43,460 nucleotides of DNA from a virus, in the IMG/VR virus record IMGVR_UViG_3300036944_000900, positions 1 to 43,460 of that record; one strand, 5' to 3'. Both the position numbers and the translations under genes were made by a program. A model generated the notes under the pieces. It had not been told where the DNA came from. It did no database searches and saw only the letters and a list, made by a program, of their open reading frames with translations. Numbering within the stretch: position 1 is the stretch's first letter; each line of letters begins with the position of its first letter. This document shows positions 4,642-43,347 of the stretch, one piece after another.

Positions 4642-4656
4642 AGTTTTTATCATTAT

Positions 4657-5245: not shown

Positions 5246-5251
5246 GTTTGA

Positions 5252-5327: not shown

Positions 5328-5333
5328 TTTTTT

Positions 5334-5409
5334 AGTCGTATAGTTTAATTGAATAAAACACCCAGCTACGAACTGGGAGCCTCGGGTTTGAATCCTGATA
5401 CGACTGCCA
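5334..5409 (+). tRNA. tRNA-Arg(ACG)
   Basis: Perfect 7-bp acceptor AGTCGTA/TACGACT, anticodon arm CCCAG-CTACGAA-CTGGG, encoded CCA. Spaced seven bases from the previous tRNA. Confidence 0.85.
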
Positions 5410-5421
5410 ATTTTTGATACT

Positions 5422-5496
5422 GTCGGTGAAGCTTTAACAGTGAAGCGTCGGTCTCCAAAACCGAAGAATGCGGGGCGGTACCGCACACCTTCGCCA
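5422..5496 (+). tRNA. tRNA-Trp-like, degenerate (anticodon CCA)
   Basis: D-arm GCTT/AAGC, anticodon arm TCGGT-CTCCAAA-ACCGA (anticodon CCA, Trp) and encoded CCA end are intact. The acceptor GTCGGTG/CACCTTC has two mismatches, and the T-arm TGCGG/CCGCA carries loop GGCGGTA instead of the invariant TTCRANY. It may be decaying or modified in function. Confidence 0.6.
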
Positions 5497-5512
5497 TTTT
5501 AACAGGTGCGTA

Positions 5513-5959: not shown

Positions 5960-6177
5960 AATCATTCAAGGATTATCTAAACAAGAAGACTTTATCACCA
6001 GCTGAAATTGCAGCTAAGCATAAAGTTTCTGTTGAGGAAATCGAAGATGCTCTTGTTGTCGGTACTGAATCCGAAATGGAACACACCGACAACAAGAGTG
6101 TAGCAAAAGAAATTGCTCTAGATCATTTGGGAGAAGATCCTAAATATTACACAAAGTTAAAAGCAGCTAAACTTTAG
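5956..6177 (+). CDS. DUF5661 family protein
   Basis: 73 aa: N-terminal helix-turn-helix-like LSPAEIAAKHKVSVEEIEDAL, then the family-like EMEHTDNKSVAKEIALDHLGEDPKYYTKL. Common in large phages, function unknown. ATGA overlap with the YkuK-like gene suggests a joint role. The last two bases of its stop codon are the first bases of the next tRNA. Confidence 0.8.
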   Translation: MKSFKDYLNKKTLSPAEIAAKHKVSVEEIEDALVVGTESEMEHTDNKSVAKEIALDHLGEDPKYYTKLKAAKL

Positions 6178-6246
6178 TTCCATCTTAGGTAAGGACTTCG
6201 ATCTCATAAGTCGAATGGCACAGATCGATACTGTGTGGAACTACCA
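6176..6246 (+). tRNA. tRNA-like, probable CAU anticodon, reduced D-arm
   Basis: Perfect 7-bp acceptor AGTTCCA/TGGAACT with encoded CCA, and T-arm CACAG-ATCGATA-CTGTG. The most canonical anticodon loop is CTCATAA (CAU) on stem TCGAT/GTCGA. An alternative stem GACTT/AAGTC would give a 9-nt loop. Only ~71 nt long, with at most a 2-3 bp D-stem. Confidence 0.6.
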
Positions 6247-6253
6247 AGTTTAT

Positions 6254-6327
6254 GCCCTCGTAGTTCAATGGTAGAACGTCTGTTTTACACGCAGATTACG
6301 GCAGTTCGATTCTGTCCGAGGGTACCA
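6254..6327 (+). tRNA. tRNA-Val(UAC)
   Basis: Acceptor GCCCTCG/CGAGGGT, D-arm GTTC/GAAC, anticodon arm TCTGT-TTTACAC-GCAGA, T-arm with TTCGATT, encoded CCA. Well formed. Confidence 0.88.
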
Positions 6328-6328
6328 T

Positions 6329-6403
6329 TCCGGATTAGTTTACGTGGAAAAATCCCTGACTTTGAATCAGGAGTACGTGGTTCGAGTCCATGATCCGGAA
6401 CCA
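6329..6403 (+). tRNA. tRNA-Gln(UUG)
   Basis: Perfect acceptor TCCGGAT/ATCCGGA, anticodon arm CCTGA-CTTTGAA-TCAGG, T-loop TTCGAGT, encoded CCA. One base after tRNA-Val. Confidence 0.88.
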
Positions 6404-7083: not shown

Positions 7084-7465
7084 AGAAAGTTTTGATTATA
7101 TTTCACAGCGCCGAGCAAAGTGGGATGCTTTAACTCCAGAAGATAGACTTGACTACTTTTGTTGTGTATCTGAGCTAATTCTTGAAGCACAAAAGCAAGG
7201 CAGATCTTATCGAGGCACACTGTATGAGGTTTTCGGTTTTGGACCAGAATCATATGTTCTAGCTTTTGATGCTGGTTATATGGATCTTCATAATATGATG
7301 TGGCCAGACCATCTTCCAAGCCAGAATGAACAGCAACTCAAAGAGCGAATTGCTCTACTAGAAGGTAGGCTTATGCATATTGCTAATGCTGCTGCTCCTT
7401 ATGGCTATATTGACAGAATGGCTCGAGAGTTAATTAAGCATGTAGAGGATGTCACACCAGCATGA
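7076..7465 (+). CDS. Hypothetical protein
   Basis: 129 aa beginning MSEESFDYISQRRAKWDAL, largely helical, soluble. Three in-frame ATGs cluster at 7070-7078; 7076 fits the AAGAGGA ribosome site. Its stop overlaps the epimerase ATG (ATGA), so it leads into the sugar cassette. No family recognised. Confidence 0.7.
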   Translation: MSEESFDYISQRRAKWDALTPEDRLDYFCCVSELILEAQKQGRSYRGTLYEVFGFGPESYVLAFDAGYMDLHNMMWPDHLPSQNEQQLKERIALLEGRLMHIANAAAPYGYIDRMARELIKHVEDVTPA

Positions 7466-8448
7466 ATTTTGCAATAACAGGTACATCAGGTTATATCGGA
7501 TCAGTTTTATGCCAACGGTTGCTAGACCTTGGCCATACTGTAGTTTCTGTAGATCATCGACCACTGCCACAACAGCTGCAGGCGGATCACCCAAATCTAA
7601 GACATTTTTATGGAGATTTTAGTGAGACTAATTTCTGCGTAGCTGTGGTAGAATATAATTGTGATCATATTTTTCATCTAGCAGCTCACTCTCTTTTAGG
7701 CCCATCGGTAACAAATCCGATGCCGTATTTCTCAAATAATGCTGGTAATTTAGCTGCTATGTTAGATACGCTAAATCACTTAGGTTGGAAGGGAAATATT
7801 GTATTCTCTTCAACTGCAGCTACTTACGGAGCTCAGAATCATCTGGTGTCTGAATTTGCTCCTACTCGACCAATCAATCCATATGGAAAGTCTAAGCTTC
7901 AGGCTGAACAGATTCTACAATCTGCATACGAAGCTCATGGAATTAAATCTGTCATTTTCAGGTATTTCAATGTAGCCGGTGCTTATAGAAGCAACTCAGG
8001 TAAATATGTCGGCCAACCAAAAGATCAACCTCATATTCTGACTCAGATGTCAAAAGCTGCCTCTGCTGGCTTCAGATTCAAGATCTACGGTGATGACTAT
8101 TCAACTAAAGATGGTACAGGTGTCAGAGATTATGTTCATGTAATGGACGTGGTAGAAGCTCATTTACTTGCTGTTGATAAGCTGTTCAAAGATTCAGTCT
8201 ATAAGTGTCCAGAAGATATGGTTTTTAATCTTGGCTCATCTCACGGCACATCTAATAAAGAATTAGTTGAAACATTTAGGTATATCTCTGGAGTTGATCT
8301 TAAGGTTGAAATTACTCCTCGTAGGCCCGGCGATCCCGACTTTCTAGTTGCAGACTCTACTAAATTCACTCGTTGGACTGGATATGAATTTCCGTATTCC
8401 AACATCAAACAAATCGTATTATCACAGTGGGATTATTTCAATGCCTGA
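7462..8448 (+). CDS. galE: NAD-dependent sugar epimerase (GalE-like)
   Basis: 328-aa extended SDR. Nucleotide-binding GTSGYIG (res. 7-13), active-site SSTAATYG (116-123) and YGKSK (Y141, K145), substrate-side RYFNVAGA, and KIYGDDYSTKDGTGVRDYVHV plus RRPGDPDF, which are typical of UDP-glucose/UDP-hexose 4-epimerases. It interconverts UDP-glucose and UDP-galactose or a related nucleotide sugar in the cytoplasm. First enzyme of a four-gene sugar cassette with overlapping genes. Exact substrate unproven. Confidence 0.88.
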   Translation: MNFAITGTSGYIGSVLCQRLLDLGHTVVSVDHRPLPQQLQADHPNLRHFYGDFSETNFCVAVVEYNCDHIFHLAAHSLLGPSVTNPMPYFSNNAGNLAAMLDTLNHLGWKGNIVFSSTAATYGAQNHLVSEFAPTRPINPYGKSKLQAEQILQSAYEAHGIKSVIFRYFNVAGAYRSNSGKYVGQPKDQPHILTQMSKAASAGFRFKIYGDDYSTKDGTGVRDYVHVMDVVEAHLLAVDKLFKDSVYKCPEDMVFNLGSSHGTSNKELVETFRYISGVDLKVEITPRRPGDPDFLVADSTKFTRWTGYEFPYSNIKQIVLSQWDYFNA

Positions 8449-9457
8449 ACAATATAAGCCATGGGAACGCAATGAGTTAAACAAGAATTCTCAGGGCGGA
8501 ACAGAAAAAATGGTCGAGGGGCTTATTTCTCGACTTGACCCAGATCTTCTTCAGAATTTCCAGATCATTCCGTCTCGAGTTCGTGAACTAAGAGATGACA
8601 AGATTAGACTCTATTGGCTTCATGATCTTCCCGGTGACCCCGAGACAAACCATTTGAAGAACGATTCATCTCGTGACAGATTTCACAAGATCATCTATTG
8701 TGGCAACTGGCAGATGAATCAATATCAATCTCAGCTTGCTATTCCACATGACTCTAAGACTTGTGTTCTAGAAACTGCTATCGAGCCAATCTCAGCTGAT
8801 CTTATTAATAAGTCTTCTGATGAAATTCGGCTAATCTATACCTCAACACCTCAGCGAGGCTTAGAGATTCTAATTCCAGTGTTTGAGGAATTAGCAAAGC
8901 ATCATGATAACATCGTTCTTGATGTATTTTCTTCTTACAAGATTTATGGTTGGGATGGTGCAGATGCTCAGTTTGAACATCTATACGAGAAGTGTCGTCA
9001 ACATCCCAAGATCAACTATCATGGATTTGCTCCAAATGATACCGTTAGAGAATATCTGGGTAAAGCTCATATTCTAGCATATCCTTCTATCTGGCTGGAA
9101 TGCAACAGTAAGTCTCTAATTGAGGCTATGTCAGCTGGTGTTATGTGTGTGCATCCTAATTTTGGTGGTCTACCCGACACGGCTGGTGGAATGACTGTGA
9201 TGTACAACTGGGATCAAGATCTGAATGTGCATGCCAACATCTTCTATCAGATGCTGAATCAGGCTATTGCTTCAGTCAAGAGTGAACAGCCTCAGAATTA
9301 TCTTAATTTCGTAAAGCAGTATGCTGATAATCGATATAATTGGACTAAGGTAGCCTCTCAGTGGGATGTTATGCTTCGTAGTCTGCTTAATCAGTATGAA
9401 GGCGTAGATCTGAAAGTAAGAGACACTTCACAAATTCTAACATTCAAGATTATTTGA
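8441..9457 (+). CDS. GT4-type glycosyltransferase
   Basis: 338 aa from the ATG overlapping the epimerase stop by eight bases. The C-terminal half has the GT-B/GT4 pattern: IYTSTPQRGLEILIPVFEEL, then FAPNDTVREYLGKAHILAYPS, and the donor-binding EAMSAGVMCVHPNFGGLPDT. It would transfer a sugar, possibly the product of its neighbours, to an unknown acceptor (host LPS, phage DNA or virion protein). Confidence 0.85.
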   Translation: MPEQYKPWERNELNKNSQGGTEKMVEGLISRLDPDLLQNFQIIPSRVRELRDDKIRLYWLHDLPGDPETNHLKNDSSRDRFHKIIYCGNWQMNQYQSQLAIPHDSKTCVLETAIEPISADLINKSSDEIRLIYTSTPQRGLEILIPVFEELAKHHDNIVLDVFSSYKIYGWDGADAQFEHLYEKCRQHPKINYHGFAPNDTVREYLGKAHILAYPSIWLECNSKSLIEAMSAGVMCVHPNFGGLPDTAGGMTVMYNWDQDLNVHANIFYQMLNQAIASVKSEQPQNYLNFVKQYADNRYNWTKVASQWDVMLRSLLNQYEGVDLKVRDTSQILTFKII

Positions 9458-9458
9458 T

Positions 9459-10427
9459 ATGATTTTAACAAGAGCACCTCTAAGAACCAGCTTCTTCGGT
9501 GGAGGAAGTGACATCTATTCTCACTATTCTCGACATGGTGGAGCTGTTCTATCTGCCGCCATTGACAAATACATGTACGTAGCGGTAAATCAAACTGTAC
9601 ACAATTACATTCGACTTTCATATTCAGAAGTAGAAACTGTTAAAACACCAGAAGAACTGGAGCACGACATTGCTAGGAATATTCTTAAGAGTTCTAGATA
9701 TAGGCCTACTACTGGAATTGAGATTTCTTCATTCGCTGACATTCCAACTGCTGGTACTGGATTAGGTTCATCATCAACATATGCATGTGCTCTCCTTAAA
9801 GCTCTGAACCCAACTCTGGGAAAGTATGATTTAGCAAATGAAGCCGCATACATAGAAATCAATCTATGTGGATCGCCAATCGGCCTTCAAGATCAATACG
9901 CAGCTTCATATGGTGGATTCAATTATATTCAATTCAATGAAGATGATTCAGTAGAAGTTACGCCAATCACGACTGATACTAAACTTCTACAAGATAATTT
10001 GTTTTTGTATTACATCGGTATCAAAAGATCTGCTAATTCTATTCTAAGCGATCAAGCCAAGCGTGCAGCATCTAATGTTGATTTGCTAAATAGTATGGTA
10101 GATCAGGCCAAGCTTGGTTTACAATATGTGGTTCAGGCTAGATATCATGACTTCGGAGCTCTGATGAATGAGGCGTGGCAAGCTAAGAAGTGTCTGACAC
10201 CTCTAATTAGCAATGATATTGTAGACGAATACTATAAGCAAGCTATCAACAGTGGAGCTCTTGGTGGTAAGTTGCTTGGTGCTGGCGGAGGTGGTTACAT
10301 GATGTTCTATGTTCCACCTGAAAATCAAGATCAATTCAAGAGAAGCATGGCTTTATATGATGATCTAACTCCAGTTTCATTCTCATTTTCTCCTACAGGA
10401 ACAGAGGTTCTTTATGACTCACGCTAA
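9459..10427 (+). CDS. hddA: D-glycero-D-manno-heptose 7-phosphate kinase-like GHMP kinase
   Basis: 322 aa. GHMP motif 1 RAPLRTSFFGGGSD (res. 5-18), phosphate-binding IPTAGTGLGSSST (95-107) and motif 3 KLLGAGGGGYMMF (271-283). It most resembles HddA, which phosphorylates heptose 7-phosphate at C1 in GDP-D-glycero-D-manno-heptose synthesis; L-fucokinase-like enzymes are the main alternative. Adjacent gmhA supports heptose. Two bases after the glycosyltransferase. Confidence 0.85.
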   Translation: MILTRAPLRTSFFGGGSDIYSHYSRHGGAVLSAAIDKYMYVAVNQTVHNYIRLSYSEVETVKTPEELEHDIARNILKSSRYRPTTGIEISSFADIPTAGTGLGSSSTYACALLKALNPTLGKYDLANEAAYIEINLCGSPIGLQDQYAASYGGFNYIQFNEDDSVEVTPITTDTKLLQDNLFLYYIGIKRSANSILSDQAKRAASNVDLLNSMVDQAKLGLQYVVQARYHDFGALMNEAWQAKKCLTPLISNDIVDEYYKQAINSGALGGKLLGAGGGGYMMFYVPPENQDQFKRSMALYDDLTPVSFSFSPTGTEVLYDSR

Positions 10428-11025
10428 CTTCTTCAATGATTATATCAGAGATCTTAATGCAGCTCTATTGAGTGTAGACCAGGCTGAGATTGCCAAAGCA
10501 ATACGCCTGATTAAAGCTACAACTAAACCAAGACGCGGTCTTCTGGGTTATAATGTTCCCAATAAAATCTATGTCTGTGGAAACGGTGGATCTGCTGCAA
10601 TTGCTGAACATCTGACTTGTGATTGCTTAAAGGGGATTAGAGAAACATCAGAGCAGAGCATTAAGCCTAAAGTAATTTCTCTTTCTTCTAATCTCCCTCT
10701 CATTACGGCTATTGCTAATGATCTTGGTTATGAAAACGTTTATTCGTATCAGTTAGAATCTATTATAGAGCCGGGTGATGTTGTTATTGCTATTTCTTCA
10801 TCTGGTAATTCTAGAAACATTATTAACGCCCTGGAAGTCGTTAGAAGAAGAGGCGGAGGAATAATCACTCTTACCGGCTTTGATGAATATAATCTGGCTA
10901 ACACATTTGAGACAATATCTCAGGCAGATGCCAGGATTCACGTTAAGTCCCACAACTATGGGATCGTAGAAGACGCTCATCAAGCCGTGATGCATATGAT
11001 TGCACAATATGCTGGTGTACATTAA
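10414..11025 (+). CDS. gmhA: Sedoheptulose 7-phosphate isomerase (SIS domain)
   Basis: 203 aa. SIS-fold motifs VCGNGGSAAIAEHL (54-67) and AISSSGNSRNI (126-136) and a C-terminal IVEDAHQAVMHM typical of GmhA. It converts sedoheptulose 7-phosphate to D-glycero-manno-heptose 7-phosphate, feeding HddA. It overlaps hddA by 14 bases. Its last codons overlap the -35 of the next promoter. Confidence 0.87.
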   Translation: MTHANFFNDYIRDLNAALLSVDQAEIAKAIRLIKATTKPRRGLLGYNVPNKIYVCGNGGSAAIAEHLTCDCLKGIRETSEQSIKPKVISLSSNLPLITAIANDLGYENVYSYQLESIIEPGDVVIAISSSGNSRNIINALEVVRRRGGGIITLTGFDEYNLANTFETISQADARIHVKSHNYGIVEDAHQAVMHMIAQYAGVH

Positions 11026-20254: not shown

Positions 20255-20307
20255 CTCCGTGCATGGAGCCCTATAACCCACCGACACGAAAAATTCTGTG
20301 CACGGAG
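20255..20307 (+). repeat. Paired-palindrome element, copy 1 (degenerate)
   Basis: CTCCGTGCATGGAG (20255-20268) and TTCTGTGCACGGAG (near 20294-20307), about 40 bp apart. The same paired 14-bp palindromes occur at 22988 and 36721. Confidence 0.6.
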
Positions 20308-20336
20308 CGCTGTTACAAATTAACAGCGCTTTTTTT
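20306..20336 (+). terminator. Rho-independent terminator
   Basis: 10-bp stem AGCGCTGTTA/TAACAGCGCT, 5-nt loop, seven T. Precedes promoter copy 5. Confidence 0.9.
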
Positions 20337-22987: not shown

Positions 22988-23049
22988 CTCCGTGCACGGA
23001 GCCTCGTTTGTCGGATATATCATGGGCTCGTATGGCTCCGTGCACGGAG
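22988..23049 (+). repeat. Paired-palindrome element, copy 2 (intact)
   Basis: Two identical perfect palindromes CTCCGTGCACGGAG (22988-23001 and 23036-23049), separated by 34 bp containing CGTTTGTCGGATATAT. The same order recurs at 36721-36785. No ORF explains it. Confidence 0.75.
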
Positions 23050-23089
23050 CGCTGTTATAAATTAACACCAAAATTCTTTTCATAGCGGG

Positions 23090-29736: not shown

Positions 29737-29820
29737 GCTCCATTGGTGGAATTGGTAGACGCGACGGACTTAAAATTCGTTTCCTAGTGAGTCCCGGTTC
29801 GAGTCCGGGATGGAGCACCA
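29737..29820 (+). tRNA. tRNA-Leu(UAA)
   Basis: Acceptor GCTCCAT/ATGGAGC, anticodon arm ACGGA-CTTAAAA-TTCGT, type II variable arm, T-loop TTCGAGT, encoded CCA. Isolated from the main tRNA cluster, ten bases after a gene. Confidence 0.9.
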
Positions 29821-35141: not shown

Positions 35142-35336
35142 ATGTCGCATTACGATAGACTCTATGTCATTCTAGAGAATGATAAGCAGAATCCGGTGAG
35201 AGCTCTGGGAATCTATGGTGATAGCAAAACCGCATACGAAGTTTTAGATCAGTGGCAGAAAAAACTGCCGTATTCTTATCTCTGGTTGCATCTCATAGAA
35301 GATACATTCCTAATTCCAGAAAGAAAGTGTGATTAA
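35142..35336 (+). CDS. Hypothetical protein related to the gene at 41698
   Basis: 64 aa. LYVILENDKQNPVRALGIYG, then TAYEVLDQW, is similar in order to YVIYLKKDNETEAVAVFTD, then RAYDKLLWL, in the array gene at 41698, so the two may be paralogs. Confidence 0.6.
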   Translation: MSHYDRLYVILENDKQNPVRALGIYGDSKTAYEVLDQWQKKLPYSYLWLHLIEDTFLIPERKCD

Positions 35337-35337: not shown

Positions 35338-35724
35338 ATGGTTACTAAGTTATATCTACAGGAAAAGTATGATCCGTCCTTTCCGCAGCTGACCACATGG
35401 CGGCTGATTGAAAATACACCCGCTGGACCGAATGTCTTCTGGGAACTTTCCTACAGAGATATTCGAACCGGTTCCGCGCTACTAACACATACTGAACGCA
35501 GATTCAGTAAAAGCTTCGTCGATGAGGATGTTCCAAGCATCAGCTTCTACTATAGTATCACAAAAAACGAGCCTACTGTGTCTGATAGTAATACTATTGT
35601 CGATAACATTCGGAAAGCTCTAAGGTGTGAAGTAGTATACATTAACCGTAAGCGTGAAGAACAAGCAGACGAAATCGAAGCATGGAAGAATATGATCTGG
35701 CGGCCAGTGGAAGACATACATTGA
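35338..35724 (+). CDS. Hypothetical protein
   Basis: 128 aa, YLQEKYDPSFPQLTTWRLIE, beta-rich. ATG at 35338 or GTG at 35329 are both possible. Its stop overlaps the TTG start of the first array gene. Confidence 0.62.
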   Translation: MVTKLYLQEKYDPSFPQLTTWRLIENTPAGPNVFWELSYRDIRTGSALLTHTERRFSKSFVDEDVPSISFYYSITKNEPTVSDSNTIVDNIRKALRCEVVYINRKREEQADEIEAWKNMIWRPVEDIH

Positions 35725-35900
35725 AATCAGTTCGAGCTAAACTAAAGAATGAACCCTGGACTAGAGCTCATCAAAAAACTATAACCTATAATCAATTCGA
35801 GTATACACTCTGGAGTCGTATTGTAAATTCCTTTGAACTAAAGTTCAGATCACCAATTCGAGTACTAATCTGGGAAAAATTAGTCAATGAGAAGAATTAA
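35721..35900 (+). CDS. Array microprotein 1 (TTG start)
   Basis: 59 aa, reading MKSVRAKLKNEPW with a TTG start that overlaps the previous stop (TTGA). C-terminal IRVLIWEKLVNEKN carries the family IWxxL motif. First clear member of the MKxV array. Confidence 0.6.
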   Translation: MKSVRAKLKNEPWTRAHQKTITYNQFEYTLWSRIVNSFELKFRSPIRVLIWEKLVNEKN

Positions 35901-36084
35901 GAACTTCGGACTTACTCTTCCTGGCGAATATACTCTTCTATCTAGAGTTAGGTTAGTTGAGGCTGTCAATTATACCACAAGAGATAGATTGTATCACGAA
36001 GTTAATCCCAGAGAGGTTTGGGCTTTCCGCAGTCATATTATCTTAGATTTGAGAGATCTACATGAATATGAAACAACATTCTAA
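35887..36084 (+). CDS. Array microprotein 2
   Basis: 65 aa, MRRIKNFGLTL...; overlaps member 1 by 14 bases. Contains REVWAFRSHIILDLRDL, a shifted form of the tryptophan motif. Confidence 0.6.
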   Translation: MRRIKNFGLTLPGEYTLLSRVRLVEAVNYTTRDRLYHEVNPREVWAFRSHIILDLRDLHEYETTF

Positions 36085-36220
36085 TCCGAAACCAAAGCAG
36101 AAGAAGTCAGACCCGAAACACTGGCCGATTTATGTATCTCCCTTGTTAGCTACTTATAAGAGTAACTTCATGAAAGAAGACGAGGAACATTGGCCGAGAG
36201 ATGATTATGATGAGTACTAA
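36062..36220 (+). CDS. Charged microprotein within the array
   Basis: 52 aa, Lys/Pro-rich start (PKPKQKKSDPKHWP) and acidic end (EHWPRDDYDEY). It lacks the family signature and overlaps both neighbours. Confidence 0.5.
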   Translation: MNMKQHSNPKPKQKKSDPKHWPIYVSPLLATYKSNFMKEDEEHWPRDDYDEY

Positions 36221-36410
36221 GCGTAAGAAAATGAGATTGGTTTCTAGAAAGTTAACTCAGTCTGCGCTTCTACCGGTTGGAGTTAAGTTAGAAAAGATGT
36301 ATACTGGTTCGGTTCAGGACAATATCTGGAATAAACTTGCAACAAGCCTTGGTTATCAACATCAGAGAAGAATCTTACAAGATTTATCAACTCAGCGTTG
36401 GCCAGCATGA
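36210..36410 (+). CDS. Array microprotein 3
   Basis: 66 aa from 36210; an ATG at 36231 gives MRLVSRKL, which fits the family start better. SVQDNIWNKLATSL is the clearest early example of the (D/N)xIWxxL motif. Confidence 0.58.
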   Translation: MSTKRKKMRLVSRKLTQSALLPVGVKLEKMYTGSVQDNIWNKLATSLGYQHQRRILQDLSTQRWPA

Positions 36411-36577
36411 AAAGTGTATCTCTTATCATTCCTAAAGTTGAACAGCTTGCTGGGCGGCCAATCAGAGAACAAATAGATAATAGTAAAGTCGTTCAACAAT
36501 TAGTTCCTGTCACTCGCCGGGGTGTTACTCCAATTGCTTTACATATATGGCGAAGTTTGGCTTCTTCTTTAAGTTAA
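36407..36577 (+). CDS. Array microprotein 4
   Basis: 56 aa, MKSVSLIIPKVEQL, ending ALHIWRSLASSLS. ATGA overlap with the preceding member. Last gene before a terminator-like hairpin. Confidence 0.6.
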   Translation: MKSVSLIIPKVEQLAGRPIREQIDNSKVVQQLVPVTRRGVTPIALHIWRSLASSLS

Positions 36578-36613
36578 ATCTAGCCTAAATTTCATACCAA
36601 TTTAGTCACTCTA

Positions 36614-36679
36614 CAGGGCATATTTTTCTAGTTTTCTATCGAAATCGGTAGTTTATTGGAAGGATATGCCCTGCTTTTT
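36614..36679 (+). terminator. Long-hairpin terminator candidate
   Basis: Perfect 10-bp stem CAGGGCATAT/ATATGCCCTG around a 40-nt loop with inner CTATCG/CGGTAG hairpin, then CTTTTTG. It splits the array into two transcripts, or is a regulatory RNA. Confidence 0.55.
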
Positions 36680-36720
36680 GATGTTTATTTGACTTTTAGA
36701 GTAGAGATATGAGAAATTCA

Positions 36721-36785
36721 CTCTGTGGTGAACGGAGCAGCGTTTGTCGGATAGATATAAGGCTAAGATGCTTCTGTGCACGGAG
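36721..36785 (+). repeat. Paired-palindrome element, copy 3 (degenerate)
   Basis: CTCTGTGGTGAACGGAG, then CGTTTGTCGGATAGAT (matches copy 2 at 13 of 14 leading bases), then TTCTGTGCACGGAG. Same order and spacing as 22988-23049. Confidence 0.7.
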
Positions 36786-36802
36786 GAGGCAGTTTCAGAC
36801 TA

Positions 36803-36832
36803 TGTACATTAATTCGGAATATGATAGAATAA
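36803..36832 (+). promoter_or_regulatory. Early-type promoter, copy 21 (main array promoter)
   Basis: TGTACATTAATTC, 6 nt, TGATAGAATAA. The ATG at 36837 is about seven bases after the -10, so the transcript may be leaderless. Confidence 0.78.
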
Positions 36833-36836
36833 CTAT

Positions 36837-37004
36837 ATGAAAAACATTGCACATACCCTCAAACTCGAAACTCGTAGATCTGTCATGAACCAGATCCACG
36901 GAAAGACTAAGAAAATAAAGGGAGTTTCTCAGGTCACGATTAAGCTTGCTTATCGGCCAATTATTTTTACTCATTTTGTAATTAAAGAAAATCTAGGTTT
37001 ATGA
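36837..37004 (+). CDS. Array microprotein 5
   Basis: 55 aa, MKNIAHTLKLETRR, very basic. No ribosome site; the start lies at the expected +1 of the promoter. Ends in ATGA overlap with the next gene. Lacks the Trp motif. Confidence 0.58.
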   Translation: MKNIAHTLKLETRRSVMNQIHGKTKKIKGVSQVTIKLAYRPIIFTHFVIKENLGL

Positions 37005-37192
37005 AAAACGTTAAAGTTCAACTTGAAAGCAGTAGCTGGAATACACAAATGCAGCTCGAGAAAGATTTGTTCAAGATTAAATTCAATTCGACTAGAAAAC
37101 TGTATAATCTTTATCTCACAGAGTTGCCACATATGATGGTCGAGAGAATTAACAGAGATTTAAAGAAAACCACAAAAAATGAAAAGCGTTAA
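37001..37192 (+). CDS. Array microprotein 6
   Basis: 63 aa, MKNVKVQLESSSWNTQ, basic C-terminal helix MMVERINRDLKK. ATGA overlap upstream, 14-base overlap downstream. Confidence 0.62.
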   Translation: MKNVKVQLESSSWNTQMQLEKDLFKIKFNSTRKLYNLYLTELPHMMVERINRDLKKTTKNEKR

Positions 37193-37382
37193 ACAGGAAG
37201 TATATTTTAGTCTTCATGGAAGAATTTCTATGATAATTTTCCCCTGGATTTTAGGTGGTGGGCCAGAGCAACAAGCAATTAGAGCAAATCATATCGGTGA
37301 CCAAATTCAGACCAGATCAATGCAGGCTATTGCGTGGATGATTCGAGATTTATTAGTTGAGCAAAAGAATGAAATCAGTTAA
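37179..37382 (+). CDS. Array microprotein 7
   Basis: 67 aa, MKSVKQEVYFSLHGRISM, then SMQAIAWMIRDLLVEQK (motif form IAWxxRDL). Confidence 0.62.
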   Translation: MKSVKQEVYFSLHGRISMIIFPWILGGGPEQQAIRANHIGDQIQTRSMQAIAWMIRDLLVEQKNEIS

Positions 37383-37527
37383 AACTGAAATATGGTCTCA
37401 GATTGAGAACAAAGTATGTGGACTATGCGGAGATGTTAGATTTGATAAACGCATTGTTTCTCTTGGCATAAACAGCCCTACTCTGTCTCTGGCAGTATGG
37501 CACCAAGTATTTGTGGATGTCCGATGA
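37369..37527 (+). CDS. Array microprotein 8
   Basis: 52 aa, MKSVKTEIWSQIENKV at the N terminus and LSLAVWHQVFVDV at the C terminus: Trp motifs at both ends. Two close cysteines (CGLC). Confidence 0.62.
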   Translation: MKSVKTEIWSQIENKVCGLCGDVRFDKRIVSLGINSPTLSLAVWHQVFVDVR

Positions 37528-37706
37528 TAAACTGCAGCGATGAGATAAAGACGTTTCTTGAGGCGGACGCCTGGTTCGCAATGTCAGAACATAACATAGC
37601 AAGCGCACTCAAGTGGAAAATTACTAATATGGTCTCGTCATCGGAACCTACTCTAATATTACAGATTATTACTTGTGAAGATCTTCGCTCAGAGTATTCA
37701 GAATGA
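37524..37706 (+). CDS. Array microprotein 9
   Basis: 60 aa, MINCSDEIKTFLEADAW; C-terminal LILQIITCEDLRSE. ATGA overlap at both ends. More acidic than its neighbours. Confidence 0.58.
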   Translation: MINCSDEIKTFLEADAWFAMSEHNIASALKWKITNMVSSSEPTLILQIITCEDLRSEYSE

Positions 37707-37876
37707 AACACGTTAGAAAAAAAATTGGTCTCGAGTGGCTTTCGAAAGCAATCGTATTAAGTAAAGTTTCGTTAGATACTAGATTAAGAGTGACAATTCT
37801 TGGTAGAGAACAACATGCAGTGCTTAGCTTTGCTATGGATCAGGTGCTGATTGATCATAAGATAATTCATGAATAG
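37703..37876 (+). CDS. Array microprotein 10
   Basis: 57 aa, MKHVRKKIGLEWLSKAI, middle strand RLRVTILGRE, C-terminal FAMDQVLIDHKI. ATGA overlap upstream. Confidence 0.6.
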   Translation: MKHVRKKIGLEWLSKAIVLSKVSLDTRLRVTILGREQHAVLSFAMDQVLIDHKIIHE

Positions 37877-38057
37877 CCGTCAGGAAAATATAAGTAACCT
37901 TGAGATAGACATCTGGAAAGTGATGTCTACTCTTTCAACAAAAAATCTCAAGTGGAAAGTCTGGTATAAGGTAACATACGCGGACGCAGATGGTTTTGTG
38001 TTAGATGAAATGATTCGACAAGATCTTTTTAACACTCATGCGAAAGAATTAGAATGA
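37869..38057 (+). CDS. Array microprotein 11
   Basis: 62 aa, MNSRQENISNLEIDIWKVMS, then LKWKVWYKVTYAD and MIRQDLFN. IDIW motif is in the first third here. Confidence 0.6.
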   Translation: MNSRQENISNLEIDIWKVMSTLSTKNLKWKVWYKVTYADADGFVLDEMIRQDLFNTHAKELE

Positions 38058-38221
38058 AATCCTTAGGTTTTATATTGAGATATAGTGATCATAATGTGAG
38101 TAAGCAACTAAATCATAAAAAAATCAGCGGTAAAGTGTCAAATGACATTTGGATAGAGGTATCACTTCAACCAGAATTAATGGATTTATTAGAAGTGATT
38201 TATGAAAATCTTTTGGGGTAG
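38054..38221 (+). CDS. Array microprotein 12
   Basis: 55 aa, MKSLGFILRYSDHNVS; KVSNDIWIEVSLQPEL gives the NDIW motif, then DLLEVIYENLLG. ATGA overlap upstream; 8-base gap downstream. Confidence 0.62.
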   Translation: MKSLGFILRYSDHNVSKQLNHKKISGKVSNDIWIEVSLQPELMDLLEVIYENLLG

Positions 38222-38229
38222 TACATATA

Positions 38230-38409
38230 ATGAAAAGAGTAAACTCCGAAGTATCTTTTAAGACACGATATACTGCTATTCAATTTCTGAAACCTCTGGA
38301 AAATGAAAGAGTTGGGGTTAAGATGAGAATAAACAATAATAGCTTGGATCTAATAGAAAATATTAAAGATGAGATTTGGGTTGATAGTATATGGAAATCA
38401 GTAGAGTAA
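38230..38409 (+). CDS. Array microprotein 13
   Basis: 59 aa, MKRVNSEVSFKTRY; strand VGVKMRINNNS; end NIKDEIWVDSIWKSVE with DEIW. The next ATG follows its stop directly. Confidence 0.63.
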   Translation: MKRVNSEVSFKTRYTAIQFLKPLENERVGVKMRINNNSLDLIENIKDEIWVDSIWKSVE

Positions 38410-38616
38410 ATGAACAGCGTTAAGAATCTAATATGGATCCACCGAGTGCGCGTGTGGTATAATCTTACAGATCCGCGTAATCCGACGAGACATTCGCCCT
38501 CGATGAGATCGATTAAGCTAAAGTTTATGGGAGATGATACTCTATTTGGAGTATCCGATCTGATCTGGACTTATCTAGATTATCTAAGTTTCCCAGAAGA
38601 ACTGAAAGAGCTTTGA
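38410..38616 (+). CDS. Array microprotein 14
   Basis: 68 aa, MNSVKNLIWIHRVRVWYN; C-terminal GVSDLIWTYLDYLSFPEEL. Trp motifs at both ends and a strand MRSIKLKFMG between. Confidence 0.63.
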   Translation: MNSVKNLIWIHRVRVWYNLTDPRNPTRHSPSMRSIKLKFMGDDTLFGVSDLIWTYLDYLSFPEELKEL

Positions 38617-38619
38617 ACA

Positions 38620-38814
38620 ATGAAATCTATTAAGGATAAAATACTTTTCCAGGTTGAGGATAAAGCATGGAGACACCATCTAAATCATACTAATCCAAAC
38701 TATCTACGCCTACTCCGATATATTAGAGCTAGAATATCAGATAATTTAACGTCGGATTACGCGGATATCGTTTGGGTTTCTCTTGTAGAAGAAATGGAAC
38801 ATGAAAAGAGTTAG
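38620..38814 (+). CDS. Array microprotein 15
   Basis: 64 aa, MKSIKDKILFQVEDKAW; C-terminal DYADIVWVSLVEEME. Strong candidate for the family archetype. Confidence 0.63.
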   Translation: MKSIKDKILFQVEDKAWRHHLNHTNPNYLRLLRYIRARISDNLTSDYADIVWVSLVEEMEHEKS

Positions 38815-39001
38815 AGATCAAATCTGGGATGATATTAGAGAAGAAACAGATATCGTCTATGTTAGAGATACTGATATATGTTGGTCAGAGAGTTTGATAA
38901 TCTTTGAGCTCTTCTCTAAAATTAGAGTTAAACTAGAAGTACATGCTACTGTTAATATTGCAAATGATATTTGGTTTTCTATTTTAAGAGACTCGCAATA
39001 G
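38801..39001 (+). CDS. Array microprotein 16
   Basis: 66 aa, MKRVRDQIWDDIREET; strand KIRVKLEVHATV; end NIANDIWFSILRDSQ. Best example of helix-strand-helix with motifs at both ends. Overlaps member 15 by 14 bases. Confidence 0.64.
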   Translation: MKRVRDQIWDDIREETDIVYVRDTDICWSESLIIFELFSKIRVKLEVHATVNIANDIWFSILRDSQ

Positions 39002-39011
39002 GAATGTTTAG

Positions 39012-39179
39012 ATGAAACCATTAAATCATAGATTGTATCCTCAGCTAAAGAAATTAGGAATTCATCATCGAATTCATCCTGGTGGTGAAAAATTGTTGAA
39101 TCTTGATTTGAGTCGCCGAACGATAGATGATCAAATTATTCTCAAGATTTGGAATCAAGTGAAAGTTGACTCAAAATGA
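39012..39179 (+). CDS. Array microprotein 17
   Basis: 55 aa, MKPLNHRLYPQLKKLG; end DDQIILKIWNQVKVDSK. ATGA overlap with the next gene. Confidence 0.6.
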   Translation: MKPLNHRLYPQLKKLGIHHRIHPGGEKLLNLDLSRRTIDDQIILKIWNQVKVDSK

Positions 39180-39361
39180 ATAACGTAACTGAACAGATTT
39201 ATGATGTACGCCAAAAGTTTGGGCGGGTCCCGGGCTTGTCAAGAAATATCGATCATCGTGTCTGGACTAGAACCTATGATAGAGTTTTCTTAGCAGTTTA
39301 TCCAGCAAGTTATGAAGTCTGGAGAAAAATCAGAATTATGGGAGATTTTCATTCTAAATGA
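39176..39361 (+). CDS. Array microprotein 18
   Basis: 61 aa, MNNVTEQIYDVRQKFG; end SYEVWRKIRIMGDF (motif EVWxxI). ATGA overlaps at both ends. Confidence 0.62.
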   Translation: MNNVTEQIYDVRQKFGRVPGLSRNIDHRVWTRTYDRVFLAVYPASYEVWRKIRIMGDFHSK

Positions 39362-39564
39362 AACCAGAAGTTAAAGCTATCATGCAGAATCAAGCTCTGA
39401 GTAGAATTCCTGCTCTTAGCGGATTAAAATTTCTGAATACCAAATTTTTCATGCTGCGGGGGCTGCAAAGTCCAATATTTGATTTAGTATCTCCCGTTGT
39501 TCGGCATGTTAAACAAGATATGTACATTAATTCTTTTCCTGATAGAATGGATATATCAAATTAA
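39358..39564 (+). CDS. Array microprotein 19, 3' end is a promoter
   Basis: 68 aa, MKPEVKAIMQNQALSR. The last ~16 codons (MYINSFPDRMDISN) are written by the early promoter at 39521, so the natural C terminus was probably replaced by recombination at a promoter repeat. Confidence 0.55.
   Translation: MKPEVKAIMQNQALSRIPALSGLKFLNTKFFMLRGLQSPIFDLVSPVVRHVKQDMYINSFPDRMDISN
39521..39550 (+). promoter_or_regulatory. Early-type promoter, copy 22 (inside a coding end)
   Basis: TGTACATTAATTC, 6 nt, TGATAGAATGG, leader ATATATCAAATTAACCAGG. Drives 39578 onward. Confidence 0.8.
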
Positions 39565-39577
39565 CCAGGAAAAGAAC

Positions 39578-39817
39578 ATGACTAGCGCTCTGCATTTTGT
39601 GGGATTCAATGTTAATCCGTCTCGCATCAATCCACATAGCGATATTCGATACGATCATGCTGTTACAGCTTTTGGCCAGCCAGACTTTATTCACAAGATC
39701 TGGGATGGTCGAGCTAAGAGCATGATCGTTGATGACGATATCGTCGTGTTTGCTGATAACATCAATATCGATACTCCAACACAGAAGTATAGCTATGACG
39801 ACTCTCAATACAACTGA
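39578..39817 (+). CDS. Hypothetical protein inserted in the array
   Basis: 79 aa, MTSALHFVGFNVNPSRINPH, with PDFIHKIWDGRAKSMIVDDD. Better ribosome site (CCAGGAAAAG) and more balanced base composition than the array members. Not a clear family member. Confidence 0.62.
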   Translation: MTSALHFVGFNVNPSRINPHSDIRYDHAVTAFGQPDFIHKIWDGRAKSMIVDDDIVVFADNINIDTPTQKYSYDDSQYN

Positions 39818-40142
39818 TTACTGGCCGGTGATTGACTCGAAAGCCGGCCATATTCATTCTGATAATGGAATTGATATGGCTGTAGTTGGTCATTTCATTG
39901 CGCATGTTCATGTTCGGCAACCAGATGGAAGCTGGACTGATGTAGCTCTGATTCAACGCGATACAGATTTTCAGAAATATGTTGTGCGAGTTTCTCATAA
40001 CACATTTACTGATCGAAAGTCTGCTCACGCTTCTGATGATCTGACAGGAGCGTATCGTGACTATGATGCTGTAGTTCGAGCTATTCCACGAGTTGGGGGC
40101 TCTCCCTCTATTCGTTCTCGTGATTGGAAACACTTTGTATGA
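39795..40142 (+). CDS. Hypothetical protein inserted in the array
   Basis: 115 aa, MTTLNTTDYWPVIDSKAGHI, then FIAHVHVRQPDGSWTDVALI. Overlaps the gene before by 23 bases and the next array member by four (ATGA). Unrecognised. Confidence 0.62.
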   Translation: MTTLNTTDYWPVIDSKAGHIHSDNGIDMAVVGHFIAHVHVRQPDGSWTDVALIQRDTDFQKYVVRVSHNTFTDRKSAHASDDLTGAYRDYDAVVRAIPRVGGSPSIRSRDWKHFV

Positions 40143-40312
40143 AACTGAAAGCTTTAAGTTTAGTATTGAAGAGAGCAGTCCCTTCTAGGCCTTGGCCTGA
40201 ACGACTGAGGATTGCTACGACTAATGCTCAGACTACACTTGTGTTTTATGACATTATTGATCAACTTTATGAAGATTTCAGCGTTGTATGCAAAGAGTTA
40301 ATCTATCACTGA
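40139..40312 (+). CDS. Array microprotein 20
   Basis: 57 aa, MKLKALSLVLKRAVPSRPW; end YDIIDQLYEDFSVVCKEL. ATGA overlap with the inserted gene upstream, 25-base overlap downstream. Confidence 0.58.
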   Translation: MKLKALSLVLKRAVPSRPWPERLRIATTNAQTTLVFYDIIDQLYEDFSVVCKELIYH

Positions 40313-40467
40313 AGCCAGATCCAAAAGATTATTCTTTAGCCGATCTTCTAGAGCTGAGGAGAAACCTCCCGCCGCCAACAGAGAAACTAACTTCTCCGAT
40401 TATGGATATTATGGATCCGATCTGGGATTTCGTATATGACCAAACAGAAGAAATGACAGAAAAATGA
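40288..40467 (+). CDS. Array microprotein 21
   Basis: 59 aa, MQRVNLSLKPDPKDYSL; end IMDPIWDFVYDQTEEM with DPIW. ATGA overlap downstream. Confidence 0.6.
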   Translation: MQRVNLSLKPDPKDYSLADLLELRRNLPPPTEKLTSPIMDIMDPIWDFVYDQTEEMTEK

Positions 40468-40628
40468 AACCAGTAAGTTTTCAACTTAACAATTTGAATC
40501 TTCTTCGCGGCCTTGATGGGGAGTTCCACCTCGACATCGGAGTCTGGTTCGTTCGAAATATAAATTTTGTACATTCTCAGATTGGGTTTATCAGAACTCA
40601 ATTGTATCTTGACTCAGGCGAGGTTTAA
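40464..40628 (+). CDS. Array microprotein 22
   Basis: 54 aa, MKPVSFQLNNLNLLRGL; GVWFVRNINFVHSQIGF. Beta-rich; start and stop both overlap neighbours (ATGA, TAATG). Confidence 0.58.
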   Translation: MKPVSFQLNNLNLLRGLDGEFHLDIGVWFVRNINFVHSQIGFIRTQLYLDSGEV

Positions 40629-40801
40629 TGAAAAACTTAGGTAAAAAATTCAGAAGTATTATTAAACATCCAGAATGGATTGATGTTGAGACTAGATTTC
40701 TCCAAAACTCTGGTTGGGATATGGTAAAGCGCGTTATGCGAGTAACTGGACCAGTCGGGTTTGTTATCAGGCGTGACTTAATCAACGGTAACGAGATATG
40801 A
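40628..40801 (+). CDS. Array microprotein 23
   Basis: 57 aa, MKNLGKKFRSIIKHPEWIDV. Its first ~12 codons are nearly the same as member 24, showing a recent tandem duplication. End GPVGFVIRRDLI. Confidence 0.62.
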   Translation: MKNLGKKFRSIIKHPEWIDVETRFLQNSGWDMVKRVMRVTGPVGFVIRRDLINGNEI

Positions 40802-40992
40802 AAAACTTCGGTAACAAATTTAGAAGTATCATTAGAGAGACGATTTTCGAGGTTGATCTTAAAGTTCCTAGATTTTATGCAAAACCATGTTGGGTTCTTG
40901 TAAATAATGTTCATCGAGTAATTGAGTTTAGCTCCCATATTAGACTTGATTTATATGACATGGCATGGAGAAGAAAGTTCTACATGACATGA
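40798..40992 (+). CDS. Array microprotein 24
   Basis: 64 aa, MKNFGNKFRSIIRETIFEVD, paralog of member 23 at the N terminus but unrelated-looking after residue ~15; end RLDLYDMAWRRKFYMT. Confidence 0.62.
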   Translation: MKNFGNKFRSIIRETIFEVDLKVPRFYAKPCWVLVNNVHRVIEFSSHIRLDLYDMAWRRKFYMT

Positions 40993-41165
40993 ATAGAGTT
41001 GACCGCAGATTACACAACATTATCAATTCAAAAGTTCTAGCGTCAGTCGCAGAACCAGTGAAAGATGTTGTTTGGGGTGTTGTGTTTCATGGAACTAGAG
41101 AGGCAGTTAATCCAACGTTTAGATTTGTTTTAGTTAGTTTGAGAGACAATGATGAAGGTGAATAG
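40989..41165 (+). CDS. Array microprotein 25
   Basis: 58 aa, MNRVDRRLHNIINSKV; EPVKDVVWGVVFHGTRE (DVVW motif) then strand TFRFVLVSLRD. ATGA overlap upstream. Confidence 0.62.
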   Translation: MNRVDRRLHNIINSKVLASVAEPVKDVVWGVVFHGTREAVNPTFRFVLVSLRDNDEGE

Positions 41166-41340
41166 TGTTGAATTATGCCAGGCTAATTATTGGGCTGTTC
41201 TTAATGAATCGCATATAAATTGGCGCATTCATGCTGAATTAACATATCCTATATCTGATATTGTTACAGACCTCAGGCTTGTTATTGTTCTTGGCGTTAG
41301 ATCAGAGTATCCAAAAGAGAATTTATATGAAACGAGTTAA
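41149..41340 (+). CDS. Array microprotein 26
   Basis: 63 aa from 41149. ATG at 41152, or GTG at 41158 giving MNSVELCQANYW, fit the family start as well. End ISDIVTDLRLVIVLGVRSE. Confidence 0.58.
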   Translation: MMKVNSVELCQANYWAVLNESHINWRIHAELTYPISDIVTDLRLVIVLGVRSEYPKENLYETS

Positions 41341-41509
41341 GACCACTGTGCTCACTTCCCATCCCGGCAGGATGCAGATTAATTTGAATCTTAGCACTCT
41401 AGTCGATGTATTGGTGACTACGGGCCCAAGTCAGATGACGAACCCAGTTTGGGATGGGGTGTTTTGGAATTTAACTCTGGACTTAAGAGAAGAGTTGAAT
41501 GATGCGTAA
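41327..41509 (+). CDS. Array microprotein 27
   Basis: 60 aa, MKRVKTTVLTSHPGRMQINL; end TNPVWDGVFWNLTLDLREEL with NPVW. Overlaps by 14 bases upstream and 11 downstream. Confidence 0.62.
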   Translation: MKRVKTTVLTSHPGRMQINLNLSTLVDVLVTTGPSQMTNPVWDGVFWNLTLDLREELNDA

Positions 41510-41711
41510 TGTAATCTCTAGAGTTCATCATGATAGAAGAGTTAAAGCTATTTTATCTGTTGGTAGTAAAAAGATAAATCCGATGATCCTAACAAAAGTA
41601 TTCACTGATCCAGATACAAACCCAAGATCTTCTTTTTTAAGCTTTATGGTTGATTTAGAGATTATGGTTTTAGACGATATGCATGATAGGACTCAATATG
41701 AGCTTACGTGA
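41499..41711 (+). CDS. Array microprotein 28
   Basis: 70 aa, MMRNVISRVHHDRRVKAIL (ATG at 41502 gives MRNV); end SFMVDLEIMVLDDMHDR. No Trp in the C-terminal segment. Confidence 0.58.
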   Translation: MMRNVISRVHHDRRVKAILSVGSKKINPMILTKVFTDPDTNPRSSFLSFMVDLEIMVLDDMHDRTQYELT

Positions 41712-41898
41712 AGATAATGATTATGTATCCTGTGCGTACGTCATCTATCTTAAAAAAGATAATGAGACCGAAGCAGTAGCTGTTTTCACTGACGAAAATA
41801 GAGCCTATGATAAGTTATTATGGCTAGTTACGTTTAATGAAAATTATACTGGCGGTAAATACGTACTAGAATCTCATTCTGTAGAAGTGTATTTGTGA
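41698..41898 (+). CDS. Non-family gene in the array, related to 35142
   Basis: 66 aa, MSLREDNDYVSCAYVIYL, then EAVAVFTDENRAYDKLLWL. Lacks the MKxV start and resembles the protein at 35142. TGATG overlap with the next gene. Confidence 0.58.
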   Translation: MSLREDNDYVSCAYVIYLKKDNETEAVAVFTDENRAYDKLLWLVTFNENYTGGKYVLESHSVEVYL

Positions 41899-42083
41899 TG
41901 AATAGCGTTCGAGATATGATGTACTACAACCTAAAAATAAAACACTCTTCATTTAATAATATGATGTGGATTATTGAGACATCGTTCGAGGTTAACGTGG
42001 CGCCTGTAATTATGCCGTGTAGACATCGAGTAGAAGATGATTTTTATGATGAGCTTGGGAATACTCGTGAAATCAGTCAGTAG
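41898..42083 (+). CDS. Array microprotein 29
   Basis: 61 aa, MNSVRDMMYYNLKIKHSS, then MMWIIETSFEVNVA. The ATG at 41898 is preferred to GTG at 41895. Overlaps member 30 by 17 bases. Confidence 0.6.
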   Translation: MNSVRDMMYYNLKIKHSSFNNMMWIIETSFEVNVAPVIMPCRHRVEDDFYDELGNTREISQ

Positions 42084-42240
42084 TAATATTAAGTACACCT
42101 TTATAGAGATCTGGGCAGGTGTGCAGGAACAGGTGCATTATAAAATACGCGATCGTGTAATCAGGCCGCTTCAACGCAACACCGATATGATTCATCAGAT
42201 GAAACCTAGAATCAGTGACCCGCTTCGATGGGAAGAGTAA
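42067..42240 (+). CDS. Array microprotein 30 (GTG start)
   Basis: 57 aa, reading MKSVSSNIKYTFIEIWAGVQ from a GTG. The MKSV start and EIW motif support this codon over upstream ATGs in frame. Confidence 0.58.
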   Translation: MKSVSSNIKYTFIEIWAGVQEQVHYKIRDRVIRPLQRNTDMIHQMKPRISDPLRWEE

Positions 42241-42241
42241 A

Positions 42242-42418
42242 ATGAGGTCTGTTAGTGAAGTGTTGCTTCGGCGACCATCATATTGCTTGCCTAGACGAGT
42301 AGCTCAGTATATGGATGATCAAGTTTATCATCACTTAGATGACCTGATAGATGTTATTGATATGGAACTTTGGTTTGATGGTCTTATTGAAGATAAAAGG
42401 AATTTAAGCAATGATTGA
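42242..42418 (+). CDS. Array microprotein 31
   Basis: 58 aa, MRSVSEVLLRRPSYCLPRRV; end DVIDMELWFDGLIED (MELW). Last member; one base after member 30. Confidence 0.6.
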   Translation: MRSVSEVLLRRPSYCLPRRVAQYMDDQVYHHLDDLIDVIDMELWFDGLIEDKRNLSND

Positions 42419-42659
42419 TATTACACCGTATAAGGCTGGAAGCAAGTGGTTGTTATCAGTTACTCTAGGTGATAGTGACCAATACGCGATACGTATATGG
42501 ACAGCTGGAACCGCATCACTTTTACGCATGGATCCACGATATGCAGGTTGCCTTATTCCCGCATCCATATTGACCGAACTTAAGTCCCGAGATGGTATCA
42601 TTGGTGATCCTTGGGCCGGTTCGCGAGGGAAGGTGTACAATAATTCCAGATCATGTTAA
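42411..42659 (+). CDS. Hypothetical protein
   Basis: 82 aa, MIDITPYKAGSKWLLSVTLG, then YAIRIWTAGTASLLRMDPR. Overlaps the last array member by eight bases. Its last codons cover the next promoter, another coding end fused to a promoter. Confidence 0.6.
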   Translation: MIDITPYKAGSKWLLSVTLGDSDQYAIRIWTAGTASLLRMDPRYAGCLIPASILTELKSRDGIIGDPWAGSRGKVYNNSRSC

Positions 42660-42663
42660 AATG
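42634..42663 (+). promoter_or_regulatory. Early-type promoter, copy 23 (divergent)
   Basis: TGTACAATAATTC, 6 nt, then ATGTTAAAATGG in place of TGATAGAATGG. Drives the paralog pair at 42692. Confidence 0.6.
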
Positions 42664-42691: not shown

Positions 42692-43018
42692 ATGAATGTA
42701 GACATTTCAAAAATTAAGCTTGGAGATATGGTCACGCTGGTCCCGCTGGAGGTGGCTGAAGACCCCACGGGCTCCGGTTATATACGTCTTGTCACTGCCG
42801 GGTCCAACTCCTTCGTATGGTTTGAACAAGACCAAATCGCCGCCCACCACCCTGCGCCCCGCAAGATCGGGGTAGGGGATAGGGTGCGAAGCAGTCCCAC
42901 TAGCGTTAAAGGAACTGTAGAGCATATCACTCGCGGAAAAGCGTGGGTAGTGTGGGACGCCTGTTATGAGACGGTCTGGAACATCGCAGATCTCATTCTC
43001 GTGGAGAAGGCTAGATGA
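42692..43018 (+). CDS. Beta-barrel-like paralog 1
   Basis: 108 aa: VDISKIKLGDMVTLVPLEVA, then DQIAAHHPAPRKIGVGDRVR, ending ADLILVEKA. 'KxGDxVTLVPL' and 'VGDRV' suggest two small SH3/KOW-like barrels. Forms of this protein occur widely in alphaproteobacterial phages. TAGGAGA ribosome site; 4-base overlap with paralog 2. Confidence 0.75.
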   Translation: MNVDISKIKLGDMVTLVPLEVAEDPTGSGYIRLVTAGSNSFVWFEQDQIAAHHPAPRKIGVGDRVRSSPTSVKGTVEHITRGKAWVVWDACYETVWNIADLILVEKAR

Positions 43019-43347
43019 CCGTGGATATTTCGAAAATCAAACCCGGCGACAAGGTGACGCTGGTCCCGCTGGAGGTGGCTCGTAACGGCGCATGTTGCCT
43101 CATGTTCAAAGATGCAAGCGGGTCTGAGATATGGTTCGACGACAACCAAATCGCCGCCCACCACCCTGCGCCCCGCGAGATCGGGGTGGGGGATAGGGTG
43201 TGGGTGCAGGGATCGACACTGCGCGTCGCAGAGGTGCGTGGCCTAGACGGAAAACAAGCGTGGGTTAGGTGGACCGAGGGCACAGAGAACTGGTCTGTGC
43301 ATATCCGCGCCCTCACCCTCGTGGAGGGCGACCATGAGCGTGCTTAA
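43015..43347 (+). CDS. Beta-barrel-like paralog 2
   Basis: 110 aa: VDISKIKPGDKVTLVPLEVA, NQIAAHHPAPREIGVGDRVW, ending RALTLVEGD. Clear tandem duplicate of paralog 1, with near-identical DNA around IAAHHPAPR and variable stretches between. Much more GC-rich than the array. Confidence 0.75.
   Translation: MTVDISKIKPGDKVTLVPLEVARNGACCLMFKDASGSEIWFDDNQIAAHHPAPREIGVGDRVWVQGSTLRVAEVRGLDGKQAWVRWTEGTENWSVHIRALTLVEGDHERA

Follow-up and report, generated by a model that had tools for sequence, protein, structure and literature searches.

The window analysed here is a 43-kb fragment of a viral genome from IMG/VR (record IMGVR_UViG_3300036944_000900; 43,460 nucleotides), and reading its ORFs and their overlaps shows positions 35721-42418 to be tiled by 35 small ORFs, all on the plus strand (Table 1). 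About 31 of them are family-like, so that the run of some 31 tiny, related, overlapping genes reported from a sequence-only reading is confirmed; the ORFs that do not look like the family are g03, g21, g22 and g32. The grammar common to the 31 is weak, an MK/N-x-V start followed later by xxIWxxV, although g26 and g27 also share MKN[L/F]GxKFRSII. Neighbouring genes overlap mainly by 4 and 14 bp and next by 8, 17, 23 and 25 bp, and the TTG and GTG starts noticed earlier are indeed seen, at 35721 and 42067. Small ORFs alike in layout, g32 and an ORF at 35142-35336, are possible paralogues and flank most of the array.

Genes, signals and setting of the array

The reading frames are real and not chance. 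Codon usage trained on conserved genes favours the annotated frame over its five alternatives in 26 of 36 genes, where 6 would be expected; about 870 stops fall in those alternative frames of the array. The back-to-back tiling described earlier stands, but the single unbroken run does not, since a terminator-like hairpin with a promoter (~36590-36836) and a second promoter further on cut the array into three units. The ATG of g06 lies only about 7 nt past the -10 of the promoter-like element at 36801, so the message may be leaderless.

Table 1. Features of the array and its flanks in the window
Feature	Position	Strand	Basis and remarks
Array unit 1	35721-36577	+	ORFs, overlaps; g01 and g04 match the tetrad model
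Unit 1 genes	g01 35721-35900 (TTG), g02 35887-36084, g03 36062-36220 (not family-like), g04 36231-36410, g05 36407-36577	+	
Imperfect hairpin CAGGGCATAT...ATATGCCCTG, inner terminator-like stem 36636-36651	36592-36695	+	Between units 1 and 2; sequence, terminator scan at possibly chance level
Extended -10 promoter-like element starting unit 2	36801-36842	+	Phage repeat family D2, promoter scan
Array unit 2	36837-39564	+	ORFs, overlaps; majority of top profile matches, several strong tetrad scores
Unit 2 genes g06-g10	g06 36837-37004, g07 37001-37192, g08 37179-37382, g09 37369-37527, g10 37524-37706	+	
Unit 2 genes g11-g15	g11 37703-37876, g12 37869-38057, g13 38054-38221, g14 38230-38409, g15 38410-38616	+	
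Unit 2 genes g16-g20	g16 38620-38814, g17 38801-39001, g18 39012-39179, g19 39176-39361, g20 39358-39564	+	
Second promoter-like element	39519-39574	+	Repeat families D1 and D2, sequence; encodes C-terminus of g20
Intervening non-family genes	39578-40142 (g21 39578-39817, g22 39795-40142)	+	Without tetrad signal; other length/composition
Array unit 3	40139-42418	+	ORFs, overlaps; strong tetrad scores in g24, g30, g34
Unit 3 genes g23-g27	g23 40139-40312, g24 40288-40467, g25 40464-40628, g26 40628-40801, g27 40798-40992	+	
Unit 3 genes g28-g31	g28 40989-41165, g29 41152-41340, g30 41327-41509, g31 41502-41711	+	
Unit 3 genes g32-g35	g32 41698-41898 (not family-like), g33 41898-42083, g34 42067-42240 (GTG), g35 42242-42418	+	
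Promoter-like element 3' of array	42633-42662	+	Promoter scan, sequence

Elsewhere in the window, an extended -10 sigma70-like promoter, TTGACATTAATTC-N5-TGATAGAATGG, precedes many genes (about 20 sites at 17062-39574). A short conserved element, GTGCACGGAGC...GTTTGTCGGATA..., occurs near promoters at 20256-20325, 22992-23067 and 36728-36785 (repeats D10/D11); it has no Rfam match, and an Rfam scan of the window from 20 to 43 kb returned tRNA only. Its PhoH, exonuclease and other genes group the phage with large T4-like myoviruses. Seven tRNA genes lie at 4547-6403 and 29737-29820, and homing-endonuclease-like ORFs near 3885, 18942 and 33084. Genes that by appearance act on sugar nucleotides (epimerase, glycosyltransferase-like, GHMP kinase, sugar isomerase) occupy 7462-11025 and are likely surface-sugar auxiliary genes. 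Just past the array stand tandem paralogues at 42692-43018 and 43015-43347 (KIKPGDKVTLVPLEV, possibly SH3/KOW-like).

A probable tetrapeptide-repeat remnant in the window, and the repeat in other viral loci

Hydrophobic residues recur every four positions in the array proteins (V/I lag-4 autocorrelation, z = 5.7), and the array DNA is periodic at lag 12 (z = 4.3) and lag 24 (z = 2.8), against 2.0 and 0.9 in control genes. A tetrad model applied gene by gene gives z > 1.7 in 16 of 36 genes, with a mean z of 1.63 against 0.41 in controls (p = 0.003); only about half of the window genes fit it individually. The best reading of this signal is the putative remnant of a repeat four amino acids long, x-[Q/S]-V-[W/R/G/E/Y], each unit of which takes 12 bp of DNA. 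The window carries eroded units only, yet a profile of its proteins still matches canonical arrays. The M[K/N/R]xV/I starts and (D/N)x(I/V)W signatures described before are present; what that description overlooked is that they look like eroded tetrapeptide units, and that loci related to the array are linked with DUF6745. Because the protein has period 4 and the DNA periods 12 and 24, "MKSV" and "(D/N)x(I/V)W" can be taken as one kind of unit, x-x-V/I-R/W, found at both ends of the repeat.

The profile in question, A1, was built from 18 window proteins alone and first searched against IMG/VR records carrying the PhoH gene, where it matched six other records. Where the ORFs of these records were read, coupled genes hold repeats that are nearly perfect, for example MNQVKNQVWNQVKNQVDSQVRLQV..., and stand beside degenerate ones. 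At E <= 0.01, A1 finds 61 ORFs in 13 array loci, 60 of them with canonical NQVW units, and nothing in 15 control loci; 30 column-permuted versions of A1 average 0.1 matches (maximum 2), so the family does yield an alignable profile above shuffled background. A DNA scan for NQVW units yields at least 120 stretches, and canonical versions of the repeat are found in over 100 loci of IMG/VR, many of which are arrays of coupled genes about 60 aa long. Among the matches listed in that scan are 291 distinct repeat genes (median 62 aa), which most often start with MKSV (57), MNSV (19), MNQV (12), MKPV (7) or MNNV (7); their overlaps measure 4, 8, 17 or 14 bp. These start tetrads and overlap lengths are the window array's own vocabulary.

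Searches in other directions returned little. No phage DNA near-identical to the window was found, nor did tblastn of a degenerate relative find anything among GenBank phages. As anchors for related loci, the flanking gene at 35338-35721 gave no match and the second tandem paralogue (~43015-43347) no GenBank phage relative, its one match being in an unrelated contig (L324). Bacterial genomes gave 115 pattern matches, near the estimated chance level, with runs fitting the repeat pattern in 5 ORFs only. The earlier judgement that no known family fits holds for the array members searched, for which Pfam and PHROG scans gave nothing above cut-off. Matches of canonical repeats to PF16086, PF23248, YpjP and Trigger_C are low-complexity and were rejected as composition matches; YpjP, in the repeat of locus L125, was the sole one above its cut-off.

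In the NQV units position 2 is Q, a residue demanded by the search pattern, position 3 is V, position 1 is mostly N/D, and position 4 is W/R/G/E/S/Y. A separate DNA family encodes D/A/N-S-V-W/R/G (DSVW) using all six Ser codons and all four Val codons, and its position 4 is rich in W/R/G as in the NQV units. GenBank holds the further variants SSL[G/E/W/R] and GQL[G/R/W]. Several distinct DNA repeats thus preserve a single amino-acid pattern, which speaks for selection at the protein level. (A frameshift, in which SSLE would merely be the NQVW DNA translated out of frame, was rejected, since the Manatee Spring repeat reads AGCAGCCTCNGG at the DNA level and retains W/R/G/E at position 4.) In the relatives' repeat units variation is concentrated at positions 1 and 4, with positions 2-3 conserved, and the two variable positions change nearly independently of each other (mutual information 0.20 bits against 0.08 bits after shuffling). 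Position-4 codons of the NQV and DSV repeats are mostly NGG (57-75%), with Arg usually AGG, which leaves W, R and G one base apart. This codon pattern, with its rare-looking AGG for Arg, looks as if diversity arose at one base.

The dynamics of the repeat are seen in relatives of the window array, as no close relative of the window itself was found. Closely related or near-identical phages differ inside the repeats by multiples of 12 bp, that is, by in-frame gain or loss of units. Between G004 and G023, dN/dS is 0.05-0.08 in flanking genes and 0.21-0.74 in eroded array genes, and one gene is chimeric: its C-terminus is kept, but its N-terminal part consists of repeat in only one of the two phages. 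An apparent pN/pS of about 6 inside canonical units was not read as positive selection, since shuffling of units can produce the same rise. These sequence comparisons fit expansion, erosion and recombination with frames kept. Two earlier suggestions gain support: that the genes were duplicated and rapidly diversified, and that the locus is a recombining reservoir (from unit gain and loss, the chimera and dN/dS in relatives).

Exchange of the repeat with DUF6745

The gene adjoining one canonical array (G001) encodes DUF6745 (PF20530, E = 3.8e-35). This domain is found in 23 of 28 records with NQV arrays, leaving 5 without it, and in none of 21 records without the repeat; by our own tally the Fisher p is 3e-9, an optimistic value because the records compared are partly related (most are also fragments). 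Among 11 DSV-array records, 7 carry DUF6745 and 4 do not. The seven ORFs are 316-349 aa long; six could be read directly and are without tetrads, and the seventh is hidden by an antisense ORF. Other loci have the repeat within DUF6745 itself, with up to 84 tetrads.

The two arrangements have not been met together. In a first table, the 15 loci with the repeat in cis had zero separate repeat genes, and the 28 loci without a cis repeat had 1-15. An enlarged table holds 48 cis loci, 41 trans loci (an array plus a repeat-less DUF6745), 2 with neither form and 0 with both, in a sample found via the repeat, so that DUF6745 with neither form is under-sampled. Since repeat-selected loci that are not cis must carry separate repeats, the informative fact is the zero for both forms. 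A tree of 72 DUF6745 sequences shows 9-10 changes of the cis/trans state, at least 6 of them forced by well-supported branches, in a quick reconstruction with many weak forks. Repeated exchange between a fusion and separate genes is a classical sign of functional association, and the exclusivity of the two forms points to a shared job for repeat and DUF6745. PF20530 has no match anywhere in the 43-kb window, which is a fragment of the genome; a DUF6745 partner of the window array is predicted elsewhere in that genome.

Interpretation and comparison with known systems

AlphaFold2 models a canonical array member as one helix (pLDDT 89), a generic prediction, and g17 as two helices (pLDDT 74). 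The helix-strand-helix order once proposed for the proteins is not seen in these models, which give helices only, at moderate confidence. A fold search with the window model gave no match at E <= 0.001, and sequence searches of the PDB returned nothing for DUF6745 and one non-significant ribosomal protein match for the repeat profile.

The window array would appear to belong, in degenerate form, to a class of phage loci that is widespread and consists of tandem, translationally coupled tetrapeptide mini-genes. We consider it reasonably probable that the array represents the repeat portion of a DUF6745 system, now detached and diversified, its proteins acting in trans with DUF6745. The products would be mostly helical, multivalent chains in which two variable residues per unit may set the binding target. 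With the module divided among many genes, each translated separately, every copy could alter its length and sequence independently. In the window the repeat would have been eroded by substitution with reading frames and start/stop coupling kept, making the array an old, strongly diversified version of the canonical ones. A bolder proposal, which we advance only tentatively, is a novel phage recognition system: DUF6745, a conserved protein, would operate alongside dozens of genome-encoded helical repeat peptides, each translated on its own. Each unit would offer two variable residues, 12-bp slippage together with gene duplication would supply the diversity, and the repeat would have switched several times independently between insertion in cis and an array in trans.

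The array could instead be a selfish or neutral coding minisatellite, spreading by 12-bp slippage where in-frame repeats are tolerated and then decaying, its products serving no selected role and its frames merely keeping the operon translated. The 12-bp differences between closely related phages, the raised dN/dS of the relatives' array genes and the apparent pN/pS within units, which shuffling can produce, all suit such an origin. We nevertheless think it unlikely: unrelated codons keep an identical amino-acid pattern, eroded orthologues in the relatives stay below a dN/dS of 1, the cis/trans exclusivity with DUF6745 is strict, and the window retains 31 intact frames.

A diversified set of effectors that acts independently of DUF6745, as decoys or as inhibitors of the host's defence or enzymes, would agree with small diverse proteins, sigma70-like promoters and fast evolution in relatives. 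This seems quite improbable to us, as the searched members belong to no Pfam or PHROG family, no evidence supporting any host target was found, and the cis insert in DUF6745 is left unexplained. We give even less credence to the view that the window array is an expanded family of small helical proteins with no relation to tetrapeptide arrays, resembling them through helix periodicity only. Such a family would account for the roughly half of the members lacking an individual tetrad signal and for the lag-12 signal that control genes show too; it is opposed by the permutation-controlled profile matches, the start tetrads and overlaps shared with relatives, and the lag-24 signal.

As a detached repeat module, the array turns from a list of orphan mini-genes into one instance of a repeat grammar recurring in more than 200 viral loci, and DUF6745, an unstudied family, gains a candidate partner through repeated cis/trans exchange of one module. 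Peptide binding to DUF6745, and choice of target by two variable residues per unit, become directly testable. The locus would exemplify a phage module in which change by 12-bp units is followed by diversification that leaves the reading frames intact.

The nearest counterparts are DUF6745 proteins with an internal repeat, such as gp38 of Mycobacterium phage prophiGD102-1 and UOF77368.1 of Caudoviricetes sp. MW202476. Like the window they carry x-[Q/S]-[V/L]-[W/R/G/E], here between an N-terminal part and the DUF6745 domain; unlike it they are single long proteins with the repeat in cis. In the window the mini-genes are separate and coupled, the repeats are eroded, and DUF6745 is not in view. 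Phage "MCKFFSF" proteins bear the same tetrapeptide (xSV[W/R/G]) as an insert in an unrelated carrier (44 DSV-type loci). Three copies of the family starting MCKFFSF/MCQFFSF stand in tandem in L446 (4656-6926), and a single query detected the family in none of the array-bearing records tested. A literature search covering non-subscription journals found no paper with these repeat strings, DUF6745 or similar arrays. Within the reach of the searches, coupled mini-gene arrays, the conserved tetrad and the repeat's exchange with DUF6745 are apparently undescribed. In-frame coding tandem repeats on mobile elements are already known from Borg extrachromosomal elements, whose amino-acid tandem repeats (aaTR) are in-frame and fast-evolving and are reported to be commonly intrinsically disordered regions within ORFs (PMC9879509). 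In both cases rapidly evolving in-frame tandem repeats yield repeat proteins on a mobile element. The perfect in-frame repeats of the Borg type do not occur in the window, where the repeats are eroded and periodicity is statistical only, and what sets the phage loci apart from Borg aaTR is one conserved tetrad, running across arrays of stand-alone coupled genes and exchanged with one partner protein.
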